Positions 2,998 to 40,894 of a stretch of 64,000 nt of DNA are shown here, in pieces. The stretch is from Verrucomicrobiaceae bacterium (GTDB lineage Bacteria; Verrucomicrobiota; Verrucomicrobiia; Verrucomicrobiales; Verrucomicrobiaceae), in assembly GCA_027486585.1 (NCBI GenBank), contig JAIXOU010000039.1:1-64000 (forward strand). Reading direction: 5' to 3'. The notes beneath the pieces are model-generated. The model made no database searches. It worked only from the letters and a program-made list of their open reading frames with translations, and had not been told where the DNA came from. Each line of letters opens with the position of its first letter. Position 1 is the first letter of the stretch. The translations under genes and the position numbers were made by a program.

Positions 2998-3060
2998 AAA
3001 GTGGAACAGGTTTGCAACCTGTTTTCCACATACCAACAGGTTGCAAACCTGTTCCACTTT
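2998..3060. repeat. perfect 26-bp palindromic hairpin
   Basis: Two perfect 26-base arms, 2998-3023 and 3035-3060, are separated by an 11-base loop; the arm core reads gtggaacaggtttgcaacc. It lies in the 355-base gap between the divergently transcribed Imm11-like gene and nitroreductase, so it is not a 3'-end terminator of either. It has the look of a REP or attC-like folded element. The rest of 2837-3191 shows no gene. Confidence 0.75.
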
Positions 3061-3191
3061 CTTTTTAGATAACACCCACACGCTGCGCTAGGAATGCGCA
3101 CATCCAAGAAAGTGTATGTGGGGTGAATGCCAGATCGGGTGCAATCGTTCTGTCCTTGCTGCTTGAGCGAAGTGGAACTAACTGACCTTCC

Positions 3192-3794
3192 ATGCTCCCA
3201 GCCCTCACTGAACTCATTCGTCGACGTCGATCCATCAAGCCTGTGGACATGGATTCAGGGCGTGAGGTGGATCGCGCGCTGTTGGTGGAATTGATCGAGA
3301 ATGCCACCTGGGCACCCAATCATGGATTGACGGAACCCTGGAAGTTTCATGTGTTTCAGGGCGCTAACCGTGCTGATTTGGTGGCTATTATGCAGCAGAC
3401 TTATCGCGAGACCACGCCGACTGCTGAGTTCCGTGAGGATAAGCTCAAAAAGATGGGTGAGAATCCCTTGCTGGCTAACGTCGTCATCGCATGCGTCATG
3501 GAGCGGAATGGCGGCACCAAAATCCCCGAGATCGAAGAGATTGAAGCTTTGGCCTGTGCGATTCAAAACCTTCAGCTCAGTGCCACCGCTGCCGGGCTGG
3601 GTTGCTACTGGTCGTCGCCGCCTTTGCTAGAGGCTGCGCCTTTTCGTGAATGGCTAGGCCTGCGCTCGGAAGATCGCTGCATGGGGCTGATTTATCTTGG
3701 CTGGCCAAAAGCCAGTTTGAATTGGCCTCGCAGTGTCAGACAGCCTGTCGAAAACAGGATCGTCTGGCATGGGTGCATCGCCAGACCGATGTAG
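3192..3794 (+). CDS. nitroreductase family protein
   Basis: A 200-residue FMN-dependent nitroreductase of the compact YdjA type, expected to use NAD(P)H to reduce nitro or quinone substrates in the cytoplasm; the substrate is unknown. Visible features are the N-terminal RRRRSIKP (FMN phosphate contact), NATWAPNHGLTEPWKFHVF (family 'aPs..n.qPw.f.vv'), the central helix EIEALACAIQNLQLSATAAGLGCYW and the closing YLGWPKAS. The last residues after ...VENRIVWH, namely GCIARPM, are encoded by the left end of a MITE (3771-4010); removing the element and one target copy restores ...IVWH followed directly by TGA (now 4020-4022). The gene is therefore probably functional but carries a recent 7-residue non-native tail. 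Confidence 0.85.
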   Translation: MLPALTELIRRRRSIKPVDMDSGREVDRALLVELIENATWAPNHGLTEPWKFHVFQGANRADLVAIMQQTYRETTPTAEFREDKLKKMGENPLLANVVIACVMERNGGTKIPEIEEIEALACAIQNLQLSATAAGLGCYWSSPPLLEAAPFREWLGLRSEDRCMGLIYLGWPKASLNWPRSVRQPVENRIVWHGCIARPM

Positions 3795-4010
3795 GTTGGG
3801 AATGGCTGGCGGAGAGCAAGATCGCAAACACGAGAAATCTAGCCGCCAGTCTTCCCGACTTTCTCTGAAGGTGCGGGATTGACTCGGCCTTCGAGACTCC
3901 AAATCCAGTCGGGAAGATCGGCGATGGAAATCATGGGCGATATCCACACTCTTTTCCGCCGACCATTCCCAACCTACGGCTGCTCGGCACATCATTCCGG
4001 CGATGCACCC
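3771..4010. mobile_element. 240-bp MITE with 9-bp target site duplication
   Basis: The ends are perfect 12-bp terminal inverted repeats (gggtgcatcgcc at 3771-3782, its complement at 3999-4010). They are flanked by a 9-bp direct repeat gtctggcat at 3762-3770 and 4011-4019, i.e. a target site duplication. Inside are sub-terminal inverted arms that start with taggttgggaatgg (3792 and, inverted, ending 3976) and an inner pair around cttcccgact/agtcgggaag. No coding frame is present, so it must be moved by a transposase encoded elsewhere. The 9-bp duplication and short inverted ends would fit several DDE families; none is identified. The element covers most of the gap between nitroreductase and the DUF255 gene. 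Confidence 0.85.
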
Positions 4011-4054
4011 GTCTGGCATTGAGAGGTAGAGAAAATGACACCAAGACGCAGCTC

Positions 4055-6232
4055 TTATTTGTCCACAGGCTGATCCAAGAGTTTCTCCAAAGCAGCAGGA
4101 TCAGTCACCGGTTTTTGGCAGGTGTAGTTTTGGCAGACATAGGCGGCGGCTTGACCGTTGACGGGCTGCATGCTGACGAGGGCTTCGTTGTGGCTACCTA
4201 GCCAAGTCTGAGCAGATCCGCCATCGACATGGAGCAGGACGGCGGTGGGCAGGAGTCGGCTGTGGACGACTCGTAACAAGGCCTGGAATTCAGGGGATGC
4301 TGCGTCGCCTGCGAGCACGATCTGCTGTTTGCCGCGATGGAGGAAGTCAGCGGCGAGGACCAGCATGGGCACAGCGCTGGGGTTGCTTTCCAGGGTGGTG
4401 CCAAAGAGGGTGATGATCTTTTTAGCCTCATCAGCATAGGCTTGCTGGTCGAGCATGGCGGACAAGCGGGCTAGGTTCAGCGCGGCGAGAGAATTCGGGG
4501 AAGGCTCGGCGCCATCGTAGTCTTCTTTGATGCGGAGAACAGAGTGCGCCATGTCAGTGTGCACGCTGTAGTAACCGCCTTTGTCTTTGTCTAGGAAGAG
4601 GGTGTCCATTTCGCTTTGCAGAGCTAGGGCCCATTGCAGCCATTTCACATTCAGTCCGGCCTGATAAAGATCAATCAGCGCGTGAATGAGCGCGGCATAG
4701 TCCATGGCAAAGGCCTTGGGACCGCGCTCACCCTCACGCCAACTGCGGTGTAGTCCTTTGCCGGGTTGAGCACAGAGTTGGTCATGCAGGAACTGGGCTG
4801 CTTGGCTGGCGAGTTCGATGAATTTCGGTTCGTTTAAGGCAGCCCCGGCACGTGCTAGGCCAGAGATCATGAGGCCATTCCAGGCGGTGATGATCTTGTC
4901 ATCCAGATGCGGACGCGGGCGTTGAGTCCGGGCTTCAAAGAGGATTTTTAGGCCGCTGTCGACGATGGTTTGCACTTCTTCGGGCGTTTTCTTGAAGAAC
5001 TCAGCGGTCTTCTTGATGGAAAAGGCGCGGAAGAGCGTGTTGGTGCCTTTGAGTTCGCCATGGGGATCGCTTTCTGGACGGGCGTTGCCATCGCGTCTGG
5101 CACCATAGGCATAACGAAAAAGGCTGCCGTTTTCTTTGCCGAGGAGAGCATCAATCTCGGCGGCGGTCCAGATGTAGAAGGCTCCTTCCGTTTTATGGGC
5201 GTCGTCTAATTTGCCAAGGCTGTCAGCATCCTCAGCGGAAAAGAATCCGCCTTCTGCATGGCGCAGATCACGCTGGGCATAGTTGACGATCTGACGGGTC
5301 ACATCAGCCAGAAACGGCGCGCCCGTGACAAGGTAACCCTCCGCATAGGCCCAGAGGAGCTGGCCCTGATCGTAGAGCATCTTTTCGTAATGTGGGATGT
5401 GCCAGTAACTATCCACGCTGTAGCGGTGAAAGCCGCCGCCGACGTGATCCCAGATGCCGCCATTGGCCATGGCTTTCAGGGTGCGGAAAGACATCTCGGT
5501 CGCCCAGTCGCCTTCTGATTTCTTTTCGGGATGCTTGAGCCAGGCATGATGAATGCGCAGCAGCAGGTTGATGGAGGTGGAGCGTGGGAACTTCGGTGCG
5601 CCACTGAAGCCGCCTTCATGGTAGTCGTAGTTGCTGGCTAGTTCGTCATAGGCCTTTTGCAGCATGGCTTCCGTTTCGACGGCGGCACCGGTGTTTTCAC
5701 CATCCAGATGCTCCTGGAGTTTCACAATGCTGCGCTCGGAGCTTGCGTTGATTTTTTCACGCTCCTCATGCCAGGCTTTGTTCAGCTCGATGAGCAGATT
5801 TTTGAAGCCAATGCGACCGTCTTTGTTTTCTGGCGGATAGTAGGTGCCGCCGAAGAAGGGCTTTAAGTCAGGGGTCAGGAAAACGGACATGGGCCAGCCA
5901 CCACCGCCGCTGGCCGCCTGCACGTAGGTCATGTAGGTGAGGTCCACATCAGGCCGCTCCTCGCGATCCACTTTCACCGGCACAAAGTGATCATTGATCA
6001 TCTTGGCCATCTCTTCGTTTTCAAAGGATTCGCGTTCCATGACATGGCACCAGTGGCAGGTCGAGTAGCCGCTGGAGAGGAAGATGGGTTTGTCCTCAGC
6101 CTTGGCCTTGGCCACAGCGGCCTCTCCCCAGGGGAGCCAGTTCACCGGATTGTGCGCATGCTGGAGCAAGTAGGGCGACTTCTCTTTGGCGAGGGCATTG
6201 GTGTGCTTGGGGGTAGCGGTGGGTTCACTCAT
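4055..6232 (-). CDS. DUF255 (YyaL/SPATA20-like) thioredoxin-fold protein
   Basis: A 725-residue cytosolic protein of the YyaL/SSP411 family: an N-terminal thioredoxin-fold domain (residues about 10-170) with CHWC at 59-62 within [20 protein letters not shown], followed by an (alpha/alpha) barrel resembling N-acylglucosamine 2-epimerase. Signature stretches are [62 protein letters not shown] and HFEKMLYDQ-like [12 protein letters not shown]. Length and motif order are those of full-length members. The biochemical role of the family is not settled; a redox or sugar-related function is only suggested by the folds. It is divergent from polA, with about 100 bases between the start codons. Confidence 0.9.
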
Positions 6233-38600: not shown

Positions 38601-39079
38601 CGCTGGATGCCGACGGCAGCACCTACCTGCCACCTGCCAGAGGTCAGCGCGTGCTCGGTCTGCCAGCACCTGCCGCCGTGCCGACGACGGCCACGAATGC
38701 CAAGCTAGCCTTCACTCTCGGTGGACTAGACCTCGCCACACCGAACAGTCTGGCCTTTAATCAGCTCATTCGTGTCAGCAATCCCAGCACGACTGGCCTA
38801 ACGAACACCGCCACCGTCGTCCCCTTCAATGCCACGACCCTGACCAATCCGAATAAAGTGGCGATCACCACCTTCACCGCAGCGACGGGTGCTTTTGCAG
38901 GTAACTTCACCCTACCCGGCACTCCAGCCCGAGTCGGCCCCTTTGCGGGTCAGATCGTCCGCATCATCGACGTTAACACCACGACGCAGGGCTACGGCTA
39001 CTTCCTGCTTCCTACGGGTGTGCCCAATGTGACCACATCGCCAAAACTCAGTGGTCGTGTGGAACTGAGCCCCCCGTAG
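32660..39079 (+). CDS. giant secreted Delta-60/choice-of-anchor-D/BACON protein
   Basis: A 2,139-residue exported protein. The start is uncertain (ATGs at 32660, 32699, 32717, 32756); the signal-like stretch is AVWAAVAGFTFWQPLVSQAA. Order: seven Delta-60 repeats (core xQPDGKxxVGGxF, residues about 65-460); a beta module with IEWLRGGSAPEATQVLFDQSTDGG; choice-of-anchor-D (about 559-670, STIDFGNVVTGFSSSTLTF); cadherin-like sandwich (672-770); seven more Delta-60 repeats (775-1125); a second copy of the beta module (LLEWSRGGQPPAVSTAFDFSTDSG); a second anchor-D (1229-1340); FN3-like (1347-1445); cadherin/Big-like NRAPVAGDD (1447-1545); BACON (1550-1630); putative Ig He_PIG (1633-1725); and a C-terminal beta domain (1733-2139) ending GYGYFLLP...LSGRVELS. 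It is probably a surface or released adhesin. Its TAG stop lies at the edge of the repeat element 39077-39223. Confidence 0.9.
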   Translation: MKVQKASQADFKRMKRCLKMNTFRFLRRSRFIMRCFSTLVQQAVWAAVAGFTFWQPLVSQAAPGDLDLSFSQSPLPLGGAPDGLAMQPDGKMVLVGGFGPIPRNTTNNRYIARLDGSAGAQDTSFVATMGFGPAPRIVRAQRDGKLMVGGEFELINGVTMTGVARLNADGTLDTSFANPTFTGIFQIFSIIVQPDGKVIVGGYFSTVGGVTRNHLVRLNADGSVDTSFNPNPNSDITSLALLPDGKIVVVGGFNQIAGSTNFSRIGIAILNSDGTLDPTPLPHISPARCVAVQGDGKIVVGGSFGRVNNQKFYGLLRLNTDRTLDMAFRPTFSLLPNTNTSTVRTLAIQADGKMIVGGNFRAVGVDAAQVDVNGDYLLNPDGSFVGSTPRVRAALINADGSLDAAFNPSFHTTAAPYLNDSFNFHGVIGAALQPNGKIMLSGYFSDVGNVAAASLVRFENTVAMEKLSFTSSRIEWLRGGSAPEATQVLFDQSTDGGTTWTLLGSASRITGGWELTGLSLPSSAKIRASAITNSGVNNGSGGVVQIIEDFPLVPPAIVVEQPTSTPLSSGSSTIDFGNVVTGFSSSTLTFTVRNTGSGLLKRLQVGIDGAQLSDFALTAPTVNEIAAGGSTTLSIIFTPSAKLVRNATLRISSNDTTTPLFSVALTGTGIASPNADLAGIGLPLPMTLSPTFAANTLSYTADAVFNRRSITITPTAQNAISGITINGTSVTSGSPSASINLTTGANVFTLVVTAENGINTKTYTLTVTRATTPLPGELDYGFDPFANAEVLTAAQQTDGKVLIGGRFVYGGANITEAGSLNRPGLGRINPNGSFDSFNPLVFGGQVSAFQLLPSGQILASGTFAPWSGTGNVLTHSIVLINADGSREATFDPVSDAQTSQMALASGGKILIVGDFTSLQPNGAASATTRNRVARLNANGTLDTAFNPNVNGIVRCVVVQPNGMAIIGGTFTMVGSTARSHLARITTTGAVDATFTAASEVDFGVNCLALQPDGKVFVGGNFSNGGLVRLNTNGSLDSTFTPPASSAGRTPFTLALQENGKIIVAGNGGLLRSAVERLNADGSMDTTFAGVSAMEGSNPGWVNSLSIQDNGLIVIAGRFASVNGISRTNIARIDGATPQSLVQLSGSLLEWSRGGQPPAVSTAFDFSTDSGATWTVIDAAGTFVDGVWQGTITTPLPTAGGLLRGRAIIAGGQYGEMIYQTSFSPPAPKIDVEQPVNDDLADGDAIDLGTLGLNVLVPAVVTIRNAGGQNLTLSNVTITGTNANQFSIIDQPALTVAPLESTTFTVHARVTTAGLKTATLNIASNDTTATPFNIVVNATGAPAVLPVATTLAATGLDFDGTAVNAMRATLNGTVDANGQPREVSFEYGPTTAYGTTVTLPGTFNSANPEPVSTQLMGLAPHTTYNFRVRVDGDLGNALGTNRTFTTANRAPVAGDDTASALASAATTIAVLDNDSDADGDTLTISTRTAVTPSTAGTVAIVSNQLVFTASAAFGTAPNLTATFGYRISDGEGSTDDGTVTVSPGSATLGETTKSIAAEGTAFETPSSYPVTIQTSGSWAVTEALTWATVSPLSGRDDGAVNITVQPNTTTAQRVGVIRIGGVSHTITQSGTVKPTLGPLTNTAYQAIVGGYFELVIPTVNAPVTYTTTGMPPGLTLSNTTGMITGRPTMTGTAPTTYNVTVRASNASGPAAADTAGKAAATVSFTINVVPLPAGVVGTFHGLIERSSTVNVGSIINLGARWEMTINALGAVSGKIVEGVTSRSFTSKLEVTADTANTPTITAAITGTALSLVLKLSALTDSLSSGVGENVLRNAGNTQSSIVTGWGNAWSTTAPIKRATQFRGPYSFAIINPATITTTNTAAPDGFGFGSFIVSETNGALRITGDLPDGSKILCDTFIGQNGQLLLYTPLHGNKGSIHGQLTVTPVNAPTDNTVVGPITWLKPTLLATDKDKSYQSGFGPLTLDADGSTYLPPARGQRVLGLPAPAAVPTTATNAKLAFTLGGLDLATPNSLAFNQLIRVSNPSTTGLTNTATVVPFNATTLTNPNKVAITTFTAATGAFAGNFTLPGTPARVGPFAGQIVRIIDVNTTTQGYGYFLLPTGVPNVTTSPKLSGRVELSPP

Positions 39080-39223
39080 CTTGGGAATGGTTGGCGTTTT
39101 GAATGTGCTCACACACGGGATCTCGTCGCCAATCTTCCCGAAGCTTTCCAAGCCAGTCGGGAAGATCGGCGATGGGGCCCTGGGTGCTTTCAGAGCGTGT
39201 TTCCGCCGCACATTCCCGACCTA
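39077..39223. repeat. 147-bp nested inverted-repeat element sharing arms with the 3771-4010 MITE
   Basis: The outer arms start tagcttgggaatggttggcg (39077) and, inverted, taggtcgggaatgtgcggcg (from 39223); the inner arms cgccaatcttcccga (39127-39141) and tcgggaagatcggcg (39157-39171) form a hairpin. Both arm types match the interior of the MITE at 3771-4010, but its gggtgcatcgcc ends are absent. The whole space between the giant protein gene and the flavin/FeS gene is this element, and both genes stop on its terminal TAGs. Confidence 0.75.
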
Positions 39224-40894
39224 CGACAAGACCGCACCCACCACCAGCAAACCTGCGGCGATCCAATCGCGAGCTCCCAGTCGATCAGCATCTCCGGTGA
39301 AGCGGATGAGCTTGAAGATGGCACCAGTGGGGCAGGTGTATTTGCAGTAGGCTAGGGGCTGGAAAAGCGATGCGATCAGGCCGGTGATAGCGATGGCTAG
39401 ACTGGCCCAGCCCGCGACGCGAAAGACGTAGGCGTCAAAGGGCTCCAGCGCATTCAAGTTGATAGCCCAACCTCCAATGAGACTGACGAAAATGAAGGCC
39501 AGTAAAAGAAAGGGAATCTGTGTCAGCCAGCGTTCAAGCTTGGCCGGCACACGCCATTGCCAGGGCAGTCGGCGGGCCACGAGTTGCTGCAAAGCGCCGT
39601 GAGGGCAGATGTGATGACAATAAAGCTGCTTGCTGGTGAAGATCGGCCCGAGCAGAGAAATGACTGCAAGCATGAGCAGACCGGGGGCACTCTGGCAAGG
39701 CGTGCCATGCGCGGCCCAGCCGGTGAGTAAGCCCTGAGACAAAAGCTCACTGGCGATGAAACCGCCATAAACGACCAACCAAACATGATGCAAATGCCGT
39801 GCCCAGGCGATGCCGCGCAGCTTGCTGAAAGCCATGATGAAAGCGGCGATGAGTGTGATGGCGTGCCCAGTGTCTTGCCAGCGCCAGTGGATTTTTCTCA
39901 GCCAACCAGTCGGGCGTGATTCCAGCAGATTCTTGGCACGCTTTTTCAGGCCTTCGGCGATGGAGTAGCTGGTCTCAGTGGCTCCAGAAACGCCTTCGAT
40001 CTTGGCCTGCTTAAAGTCCAGATCAGCCAGCTTTTCCAGCGTCATGTCATTGAAGAGCTTTTGGAAATAGTCGTCACCGGTGACATAGGCTACGTAGCGT
40101 TTGGTATCGTAGCTTTTGCGCAGAGACATGCGTTTGAAAATCTGACCGCTGGCGTCTAGCAGCATCAGGGAATCCGTCGGCCCTTTGTAACCGACGAGGG
40201 TGTCAGTGACAGGAGAGGTGCGGGTGGCGATGCCGATGCGGGTGCCATTGATATCTAGTACTTCCTGGCTGCCTGGATGCAGCTTGGCTGGCTGTAATTT
40301 CGCGGCTTTTGGTTCTAAAACCTGCACCTCGGCCAGCGTGATTTCGTCTGGAAAGCGCAAAGACGTGCCTGAGGCCTGACCAAGTTTGGCCAGCACGCCC
40401 TGAGCGATAGCTGTGCTGGTCAAAGTGGCTCCTGTGACGACATGCAGCGGTTTGGCCTCATCAGGTTTCTTCATCTGCTCGGGGAATTGAGCAAAAAAAG
40501 CCCGGTCTGCCACGACCTCGGCCACATGATCCGAGGTGTCGTGACTTTTGATGAGGCGCACTCGAGTCAGCGTACCTTTGGCATCAAAGACGAGCAAGCT
40601 GTTGGTCGGGCCAGAGTAGCCTATAAAAGCATTCGATTCAGGAGCGGTCGTGGTCACGTAGCCCAGCTTTTCCCCTTCACTACCCAGCACAGCGCGCCAA
40701 CCGCTGGTGGCGTTTAGCGGACCTAGGCTGTGGATTTTGGGGAAGTCTCCCCGTAGGCGCTCAGGCTGGAGGGCTGCGGCGGCTTCTTCCAGATTCCGCA
40801 GGCTGGCAGTTTCTCTGATCACCAGCACTGCAGACACCAGCAGCCCCAGCCGCCAGAGGCGGATGAGGCGTGGACGTAGTTTCTTCAGCAGCAT
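39221..40894 (-). CDS. NosR/NapH-like membrane flavin and Fe-S electron-transfer protein
   Basis: A 557-residue inner-membrane protein. After one N-terminal helix come two extracytosolic FMN_bind domains (about 50-175 and 195-320), each ending in the flavinylation-type motif S/T-GAT: VVTGATLTSTAI and GVSGATETSYSI, where ApbE would attach FMN to Thr. Then about six membrane helices (340-557) with two cysteine motifs CHHICPHGAL and CKYTCPTGAI, like the ferredoxin-type sites of NapH/NosR/RsxAB relatives; each has C-x3-CP rather than a full CxxCxxCxxxCP. It should carry electrons across the membrane to an extracytosolic acceptor; the partner is not in the window. The last codon and the TAG stop fall in the repeat element. 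Divergent from pfkA. Confidence 0.85.
   Translation of the reverse strand: MLLKKLRPRLIRLWRLGLLVSAVLVIRETASLRNLEEAAAALQPERLRGDFPKIHSLGPLNATSGWRAVLGSEGEKLGYVTTTAPESNAFIGYSGPTNSLLVFDAKGTLTRVRLIKSHDTSDHVAEVVADRAFFAQFPEQMKKPDEAKPLHVVTGATLTSTAIAQGVLAKLGQASGTSLRFPDEITLAEVQVLEPKAAKLQPAKLHPGSQEVLDINGTRIGIATRTSPVTDTLVGYKGPTDSLMLLDASGQIFKRMSLRKSYDTKRYVAYVTGDDYFQKLFNDMTLEKLADLDFKQAKIEGVSGATETSYSIAEGLKKRAKNLLESRPTGWLRKIHWRWQDTGHAITLIAAFIMAFSKLRGIAWARHLHHVWLVVYGGFIASELLSQGLLTGWAAHGTPCQSAPGLLMLAVISLLGPIFTSKQLYCHHICPHGALQQLVARRLPWQWRVPAKLERWLTQIPFLLLAFIFVSLIGGWAINLNALEPFDAYVFRVAGWASLAIAITGLIASLFQPLAYCKYTCPTGAIFKLIRFTGDADRLGARDWIAAGLLVVGAVLS

Follow-up and report, generated by a model that had tools for sequence, protein, structure and literature searches.

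A MITE with putative ISKra4-type ends and a REPIN-like core at the stop codon of a Verrucomicrobiaceae nitroreductase gene

The window analyzed here (the whole stretch of 64,000 nucleotides from contig JAIXOU010000039.1 of a Verrucomicrobiaceae bacterium, genome G000) contains a nitroreductase-family gene whose reading frame runs into a short element with inverted ends, and the locus raises the question of what this element is made of and which transposase may have brought it there. The original prediction, made from the letters alone, was that a MITE had been inserted with a 9-bp target duplication and had rewritten the end of the protein. The features to which the text refers are as follows.

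3192..3794, + strand: nitroreductase-family gene, 200 aa (PF00881, E 3.8e-24); last seven codons and stop derived from the element
3762..3770, no strand: left copy of the target duplication gtctggcat, 9 bp; single copy in the relatives G038 and G003
3771..4010, + strand: MITE, 240 bp; further full copies with 9-bp duplications at G000 C101 and C139 and at G024 C29 and C507 (8/9 match at C507)
3771..3792, + strand: left terminal inverted repeat, putative ISKra4 type, aligned with the 22-bp IS ends of L078
3791..3977, + strand: REPIN-like core, 187 bp, arranged R1(+) R2(-) R2(+) R1(-), with GTAG at both outer ends (begins GTAG, ends CTAC)
3791..3811, + strand: R1 arm of the core, GTAGGTTGGGAATGGCTGGCG
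3792..3794, + strand: current stop TAG of the nitroreductase gene, inside the GTAG
3844..3860, - strand: R2 arm of the core, inverted
3907..3923, + strand: R2 arm of the core
3957..3977, - strand: R1 arm of the core, inverted
3989..4010, - strand: right terminal inverted repeat, identical (22/22) to the IS ends
4011..4019, no strand: right copy of gtctggcat, followed by TGA (4020-4022), the ancestral stop
39076..39225, + strand: free core copy, shortened (150 bp), without ISKra4 ends

The insertion and the end of the nitroreductase

The 240-bp element is short and non-coding, with no gene of its own, and its ends, gggtgcatcgcc and ggcgatgcaccc, form the predicted inverted pair, which was confirmed to be perfect over 12 bp and is imperfect over 22 bp (the 22-bp arms are 86% complementary). 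The direct repeat gtctggcat is intact on both sides, and when inverted pairs were sought at a spacing of 100-3000 bp, a perfect 12-bp pair with adjacent perfect 9-bp direct repeats occurred once in the window and in none of 50 mononucleotide shuffles. The interval originally proposed, 3762-4022, encloses the element and both duplications, but overshoots the second duplication by three bases, which belong to the old TGA. An Rfam search of 3000-4500 gave no family above threshold; its candidate mir-2755 scored 22 bits, far below the 76-bit cut-off, and the match arises from another palindrome at 3001-3059. This second palindromic repeat, aagtggaacaggtttgcaacctgtt...aacaggttgcaaacctgttccactt, lies directly upstream of the nitroreductase gene, with one pair in the window.

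Orthologues of the nitroreductase occur in 66 of the 96 genomes counted, the window's own genome included. Those of G038 and G003, which belong to the same genus, have 95% identity (97% for G038 over residues 1-193) and end at residue 193 with VENRIVWH-stop; the DNA of both aligns across the insertion point, where one gtctggcat is followed by TGA. These empty sites match the ancestor that had been reconstructed by excising the element together with one target copy. The gene now ends ...VENRIVWH-GCIARPM-TAG, so the predicted extension is real, and no relative that lacks the element yet encodes GCIARPM was encountered. After landing at the stop codon, the element would have been translated through its left end as far as the TAG of GTAG; that the new stop codon lies within the GTAG tag had not been noticed at first reading. 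The G024 orthologue (89% identity) ends at a TGA after ...TTTGGCAT, and in more distant orthologues the same VWH/WH region is followed by short tails that differ (VKKA, RH, RTTADA, HHD). Because the C-terminus of the family tolerates such variation, the effect of the seven added residues is probably small, and to say that the end of the protein was "rewritten" is strong wording for a tail that is itself real.

Two further full copies are present in G000, one at C101:2918-3156 (80% identity, duplication tcgtccaat) and one at C139:79775-80015 (73% identity, duplication tcattgacc), which brings the genome to three, a low copy number. Two more were found in the close relative G024: the copy on C29 (92% identity, duplication cctacgccc) is nested, having inserted into the sequence that borders another core copy on its right, and the copy on C507 (76% identity) has a duplication matching at 8/9 positions. 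Across copies, the duplication is therefore exactly 9 bp in four and an 8/9 match in one. The coordinates of the nested insertion on C29 are L034 1300-1800. At the C139 site, G038 and G003 have a single-copy target, and at the C101 site G038 has one target copy beside a 41-nt difference. Together with the empty sites in two relatives, these additional copies bear out the proposed MITE insertion and its target duplication. Only exact end pairs were used for these comparisons; when three mismatches were allowed, GGGTGYAYCGCCRGA gave as many matches in the own genome as the reversed control.

The predicted hairpin of the element is very stable (-125.5 kcal/mol, z -9.5), and it could be asked whether the element was retained as a bidirectional terminator or mRNA stabilizer. 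Genes do converge on it from both sides (3192-3794 on the + strand and 4055-6232 on the - strand), and the C139 copy likewise lies between converging ORFs. However, two close relatives lack the element at the corresponding position, and convergent spacers simply tolerate insertions, so that a selected function of this kind appears very unlikely.

The partner IS and its ISKra4-family transposase

Among 84,980 genomes scanned, GGGTGYAYCGCCGGAWTGATG occurred in four contigs from two MAGs. In L078 (UBA11399, G015), which belongs to the genus of the window, an IS of 1495 bp has perfect 22-bp inverted ends, both of which are identical at 22/22 positions to the right end of the MITE. This IS encodes one protein of 467 aa that matches the ISKra4 transposase model NF033572 (E 7e-53, 180 bits, below the NCBIfam cut-off of 205). 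When the flanks of L078 and L076, which we infer to border one IS insertion, are joined, the interrupted ORF continues in frame and the duplication is 8 bp, agcggtac, versus 9 bp for the MITEs. A broken relative of the IS with a 21/22 end is present in G044, of the same genus. The IS of L078 lies in the 3' end of a RAYT-like ORF (L078 3049-3249), to which it adds the tail GCIAGMM-stop; this parallels the GCIARPM of the nitroreductase, since the end repeat codes for such a tail in that frame.

Mutator-like (p-MULT) elements, ISKra4 included, have inverted repeats of 18-39 bp and target duplications of 8 or 9 bp (PMC3942029). Like the ISKra4 family (p-MULT 4, Mutator superfamily; Guerillot et al. 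2014, PMC3942029), the element has terminal repeats of suitable length with G as their first base, duplications in the 8-9-bp range, and a partner IS that encodes an ISKra4-family transposase, but it differs in being a non-coding unit of 240 bp whose interior is unrelated to the IS and whose transposase is missing from its own assembly. The outer 20-22 bp on each side would be terminal inverted repeats of a Mutator-like DDE transposon. A transposase with the same ends, for which the original prediction had suggested a search, does exist in a congeneric genome; it was not detected in the own genome, and its duplication is 8 rather than 9 bp. Searches by protein and by family found no ISKra4-family transposase in G000, G024 or G038, and a plasmid collection held only distant ones, all below 60% identity. 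G000 is a draft assembly of 147 contigs, from which IS copies are often lost, and the IS may either have been lost from these genomes or have dropped out of draft assemblies. On the strength of the shared ends, the 1495-bp IS is a likely autonomous partner of the MITE, and we consider it very probable that an ISKra4-type transposase acted in trans to move the 240-bp unit and thereby produced the 9-bp target duplications.

The REPIN-like core and the RAYT gene

The interior of the element was passed over at first reading: it is a RAYT-linked, REPIN-like unit that also exists outside the element. As a GTAG-tagged inverted REP pair, the 187-bp core has the form of a REPIN, but its R1 arm is not self-palindromic and the hairpin pairs R1 with R2 across a loop of ~31 nt, giving units of ~69 nt rather than the self-contained hairpins of 20-40 bp that define REP units; the core is called REPIN-like, and not a classical REPIN, since its short units are not self-contained small hairpins. 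Covariation in the core amounted to one pair with double changes and gave no support beyond sequence conservation; that there is so little of it reflects the conservation of the arms in sequence. R1 motifs number about 16 per genome.

Cores without outer ends were found in G000 (C31, C144, C6 and window positions 39076-39225), in G024 (C619, C231, C584) and in G038 (C79, C35). In relatives, the site of the core at 39076-39225 lacks the core and has CCGTA-like sequence instead, and such a site at two free-core positions is suggestive only; alignments at the free cores were ambiguous and yielded no clean empty sites. The distribution of the free cores nevertheless suggests that the core could move without ISKra4 ends. 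On G000 C6 (L172 2054-2418), cores form a BIME-like tandem cluster in which ~143 nt are repeated at a spacing of 233 nt.

On G038 C79, a full core lies immediately upstream of a gene for a 239-aa protein, and a half core starts at the gene's stop codon, the TAG lying within GTAG. The protein exceeds the Pfam cut-off for Y1_Tnp and matches REP_Tyr_transpos NF047646 (E 2.4e-19, 69.7 bits, with a cut-off of 80), and by these matches it is a REP-associated tyrosine transposase (RAYT, HUH). In G000, contigs C144 and C145 both end inside one RAYT gene (C144:1-258 and C145:3804-4379) and are probably neighbours. Each carries a part of the gene seen in G038 (97% identity each), and cores lie on either side of it. 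The core repeat flanks the RAYT gene both at L164 and at C144/C145. RAYT orthologues elsewhere in the genus (48-62% identity) have their own, different GTAG-type repeats beside the gene, e.g. GTAGGTTGGGAAGG, GTAGGCCGGATG and GTAGGGCGGGTG. This arrangement fits the published pattern of RAYTs with cognate REPs (PMC3116915, PMC3733652), and the core, a GTAG-tagged dimer of the repeat kind thought to be mobilized by the RAYT whose gene it flanks, is in all likelihood a REPIN in origin.

Compared with REPINs and GTAG REP dimers with their RAYTs (REPtrons; PMC3116915, PMC3733652), the core shares the outer GTAGs, the inverted dimer, the flanking of a RAYT in two genomes, the intergenic copies and the occurrence of separate repeats at orthologous RAYTs. 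It departs from them in its longer units with a long loop and distinct R1/R2 arms (classical REPs have 20-40 bp), in a number of motifs per genome well short of hundreds, and in that some copies lie within DDE-transposon ends.

An ordinary MITE, that is, an internally deleted ISKra4-type IS with an interior palindromic by chance, would account for ends that match the IS perfectly, and the free cores would then be old MITEs that have shed their ends, a process for which the clearly decayed right end of one nested G024 copy offers a precedent. Yet there is no visible kinship between the core and the interior of the IS, whose two ends diverge from each other past 22 bp, and the end repeat extends into the core by no more than the GT of GTAG. 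No remnant of ISKra4 ends is seen at free copies whose GTAG arms are well preserved, cores directly flank a RAYT gene, one of them starting at its stop codon, and orthologous RAYTs possess GTAG repeats of their own. The ordinary-MITE explanation thus seems improbable.

Even less probable is that the RAYT moves the whole 240-bp unit, with the outer ends as part of an extended RAYT substrate. From what is known of IS200/IS605, HUH Y1 transposition is not expected to yield target duplications, whereas the element has clean 9-bp duplications and shares an identical 22-bp end with a DDE IS; moreover, the outer ends are missing from the cores that flank the RAYT. Speaking for such a role are the presence of the RAYT in the own genome, flanked by the same core, and the precedent of TIRtrons, in which long inverted repeats adjoin RAYT-like genes (PMC3733652).

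A putative chimera and its significance

The explanation that we favour as a whole, with good confidence, is a chimera in which DDE-transposon ends enclose a REPIN-like core. The left end repeat joins GTAG directly in all full copies (TGATGTAGG), the last two bases of the repeat, GT (of 3771-3792), being the first two of the GTAG of the core, and on the right side ~11 bp lie between CTAC and the end repeat; this constant arrangement probably goes back to one junction. A REPIN would thus have come to lie between two ISKra4-type ends, and the unit would then have transposed as a MITE. For this founding event, insertion of the REPIN into a derivative that lacked the transposase, at the GT with which the end repeat closes on its inner side (TGATGT and GTAG share GT), stands at about an even chance.

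The cores do not group by the presence of ISKra4 ends. In G024, the C507 MITE has a core with 92% identity to a free core of G000 C6 (bootstrap 99) and 66-71% identity to the remaining intact MITE cores, and the cores of the C101 and C139 MITEs are 88% and 84% identical, respectively, to a core that stands free in G024. These values, which come from a short alignment with weak deep nodes, are most simply read as repeated capture or exchange of cores and provide a lead rather than proof. A further-reaching version, in which the 240-bp unit is a working substrate for both the ISKra4-type DDE transposase (through the ends) and the RAYT (through the GTAG core), with cores exchanged between MITEs and free REPINs, is conceivable but rather unlikely; if it were true, each mobility system would spread the repeats of the other.

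MITEs and REPINs are each familiar from bacteria, and section 7 of PMC3733652 already mentions REP dimers in larger palindromes. There, in A. variabilis GTAG-15 and H. neapolitanus CGTC-1, a REP dimer likewise lies regularly inside an outer palindrome, but that section links the outer palindromes neither to a transposase nor to target duplications (PMC3733652), whereas the ends here belong to an identified IS and come with duplications and empty sites. The TIRs of P. putida and P. fluorescens, in which degenerate GTAG-1 units adjoin unrelated stem-loops (PMC3733652), also fuse REP units to an unrelated inverted repeat, but they flank tyrosine-transposase genes, while the partner repeat here would come from a DDE transposon. 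In the open-access literature, we found no account of identified DDE-transposon ends that enclose a REPIN and come with target duplications and empty sites, and the part of it that was covered contained no paper on ISKra4-type MITEs.

The origin and the change of cargo of REPINs and MITEs are poorly documented, and here closely related genomes allow one to name the end repeats and a candidate transposase whose own ends match them, along with the RAYT of the core, free cores and empty sites. For the nitroreductase, the insertion is a dated and reversible change of a protein C-terminus, probably of minor effect. An HUH-transposase repeat nested in DDE ends would offer a concrete, testable way for mobile DNA of one family to spread that of another.
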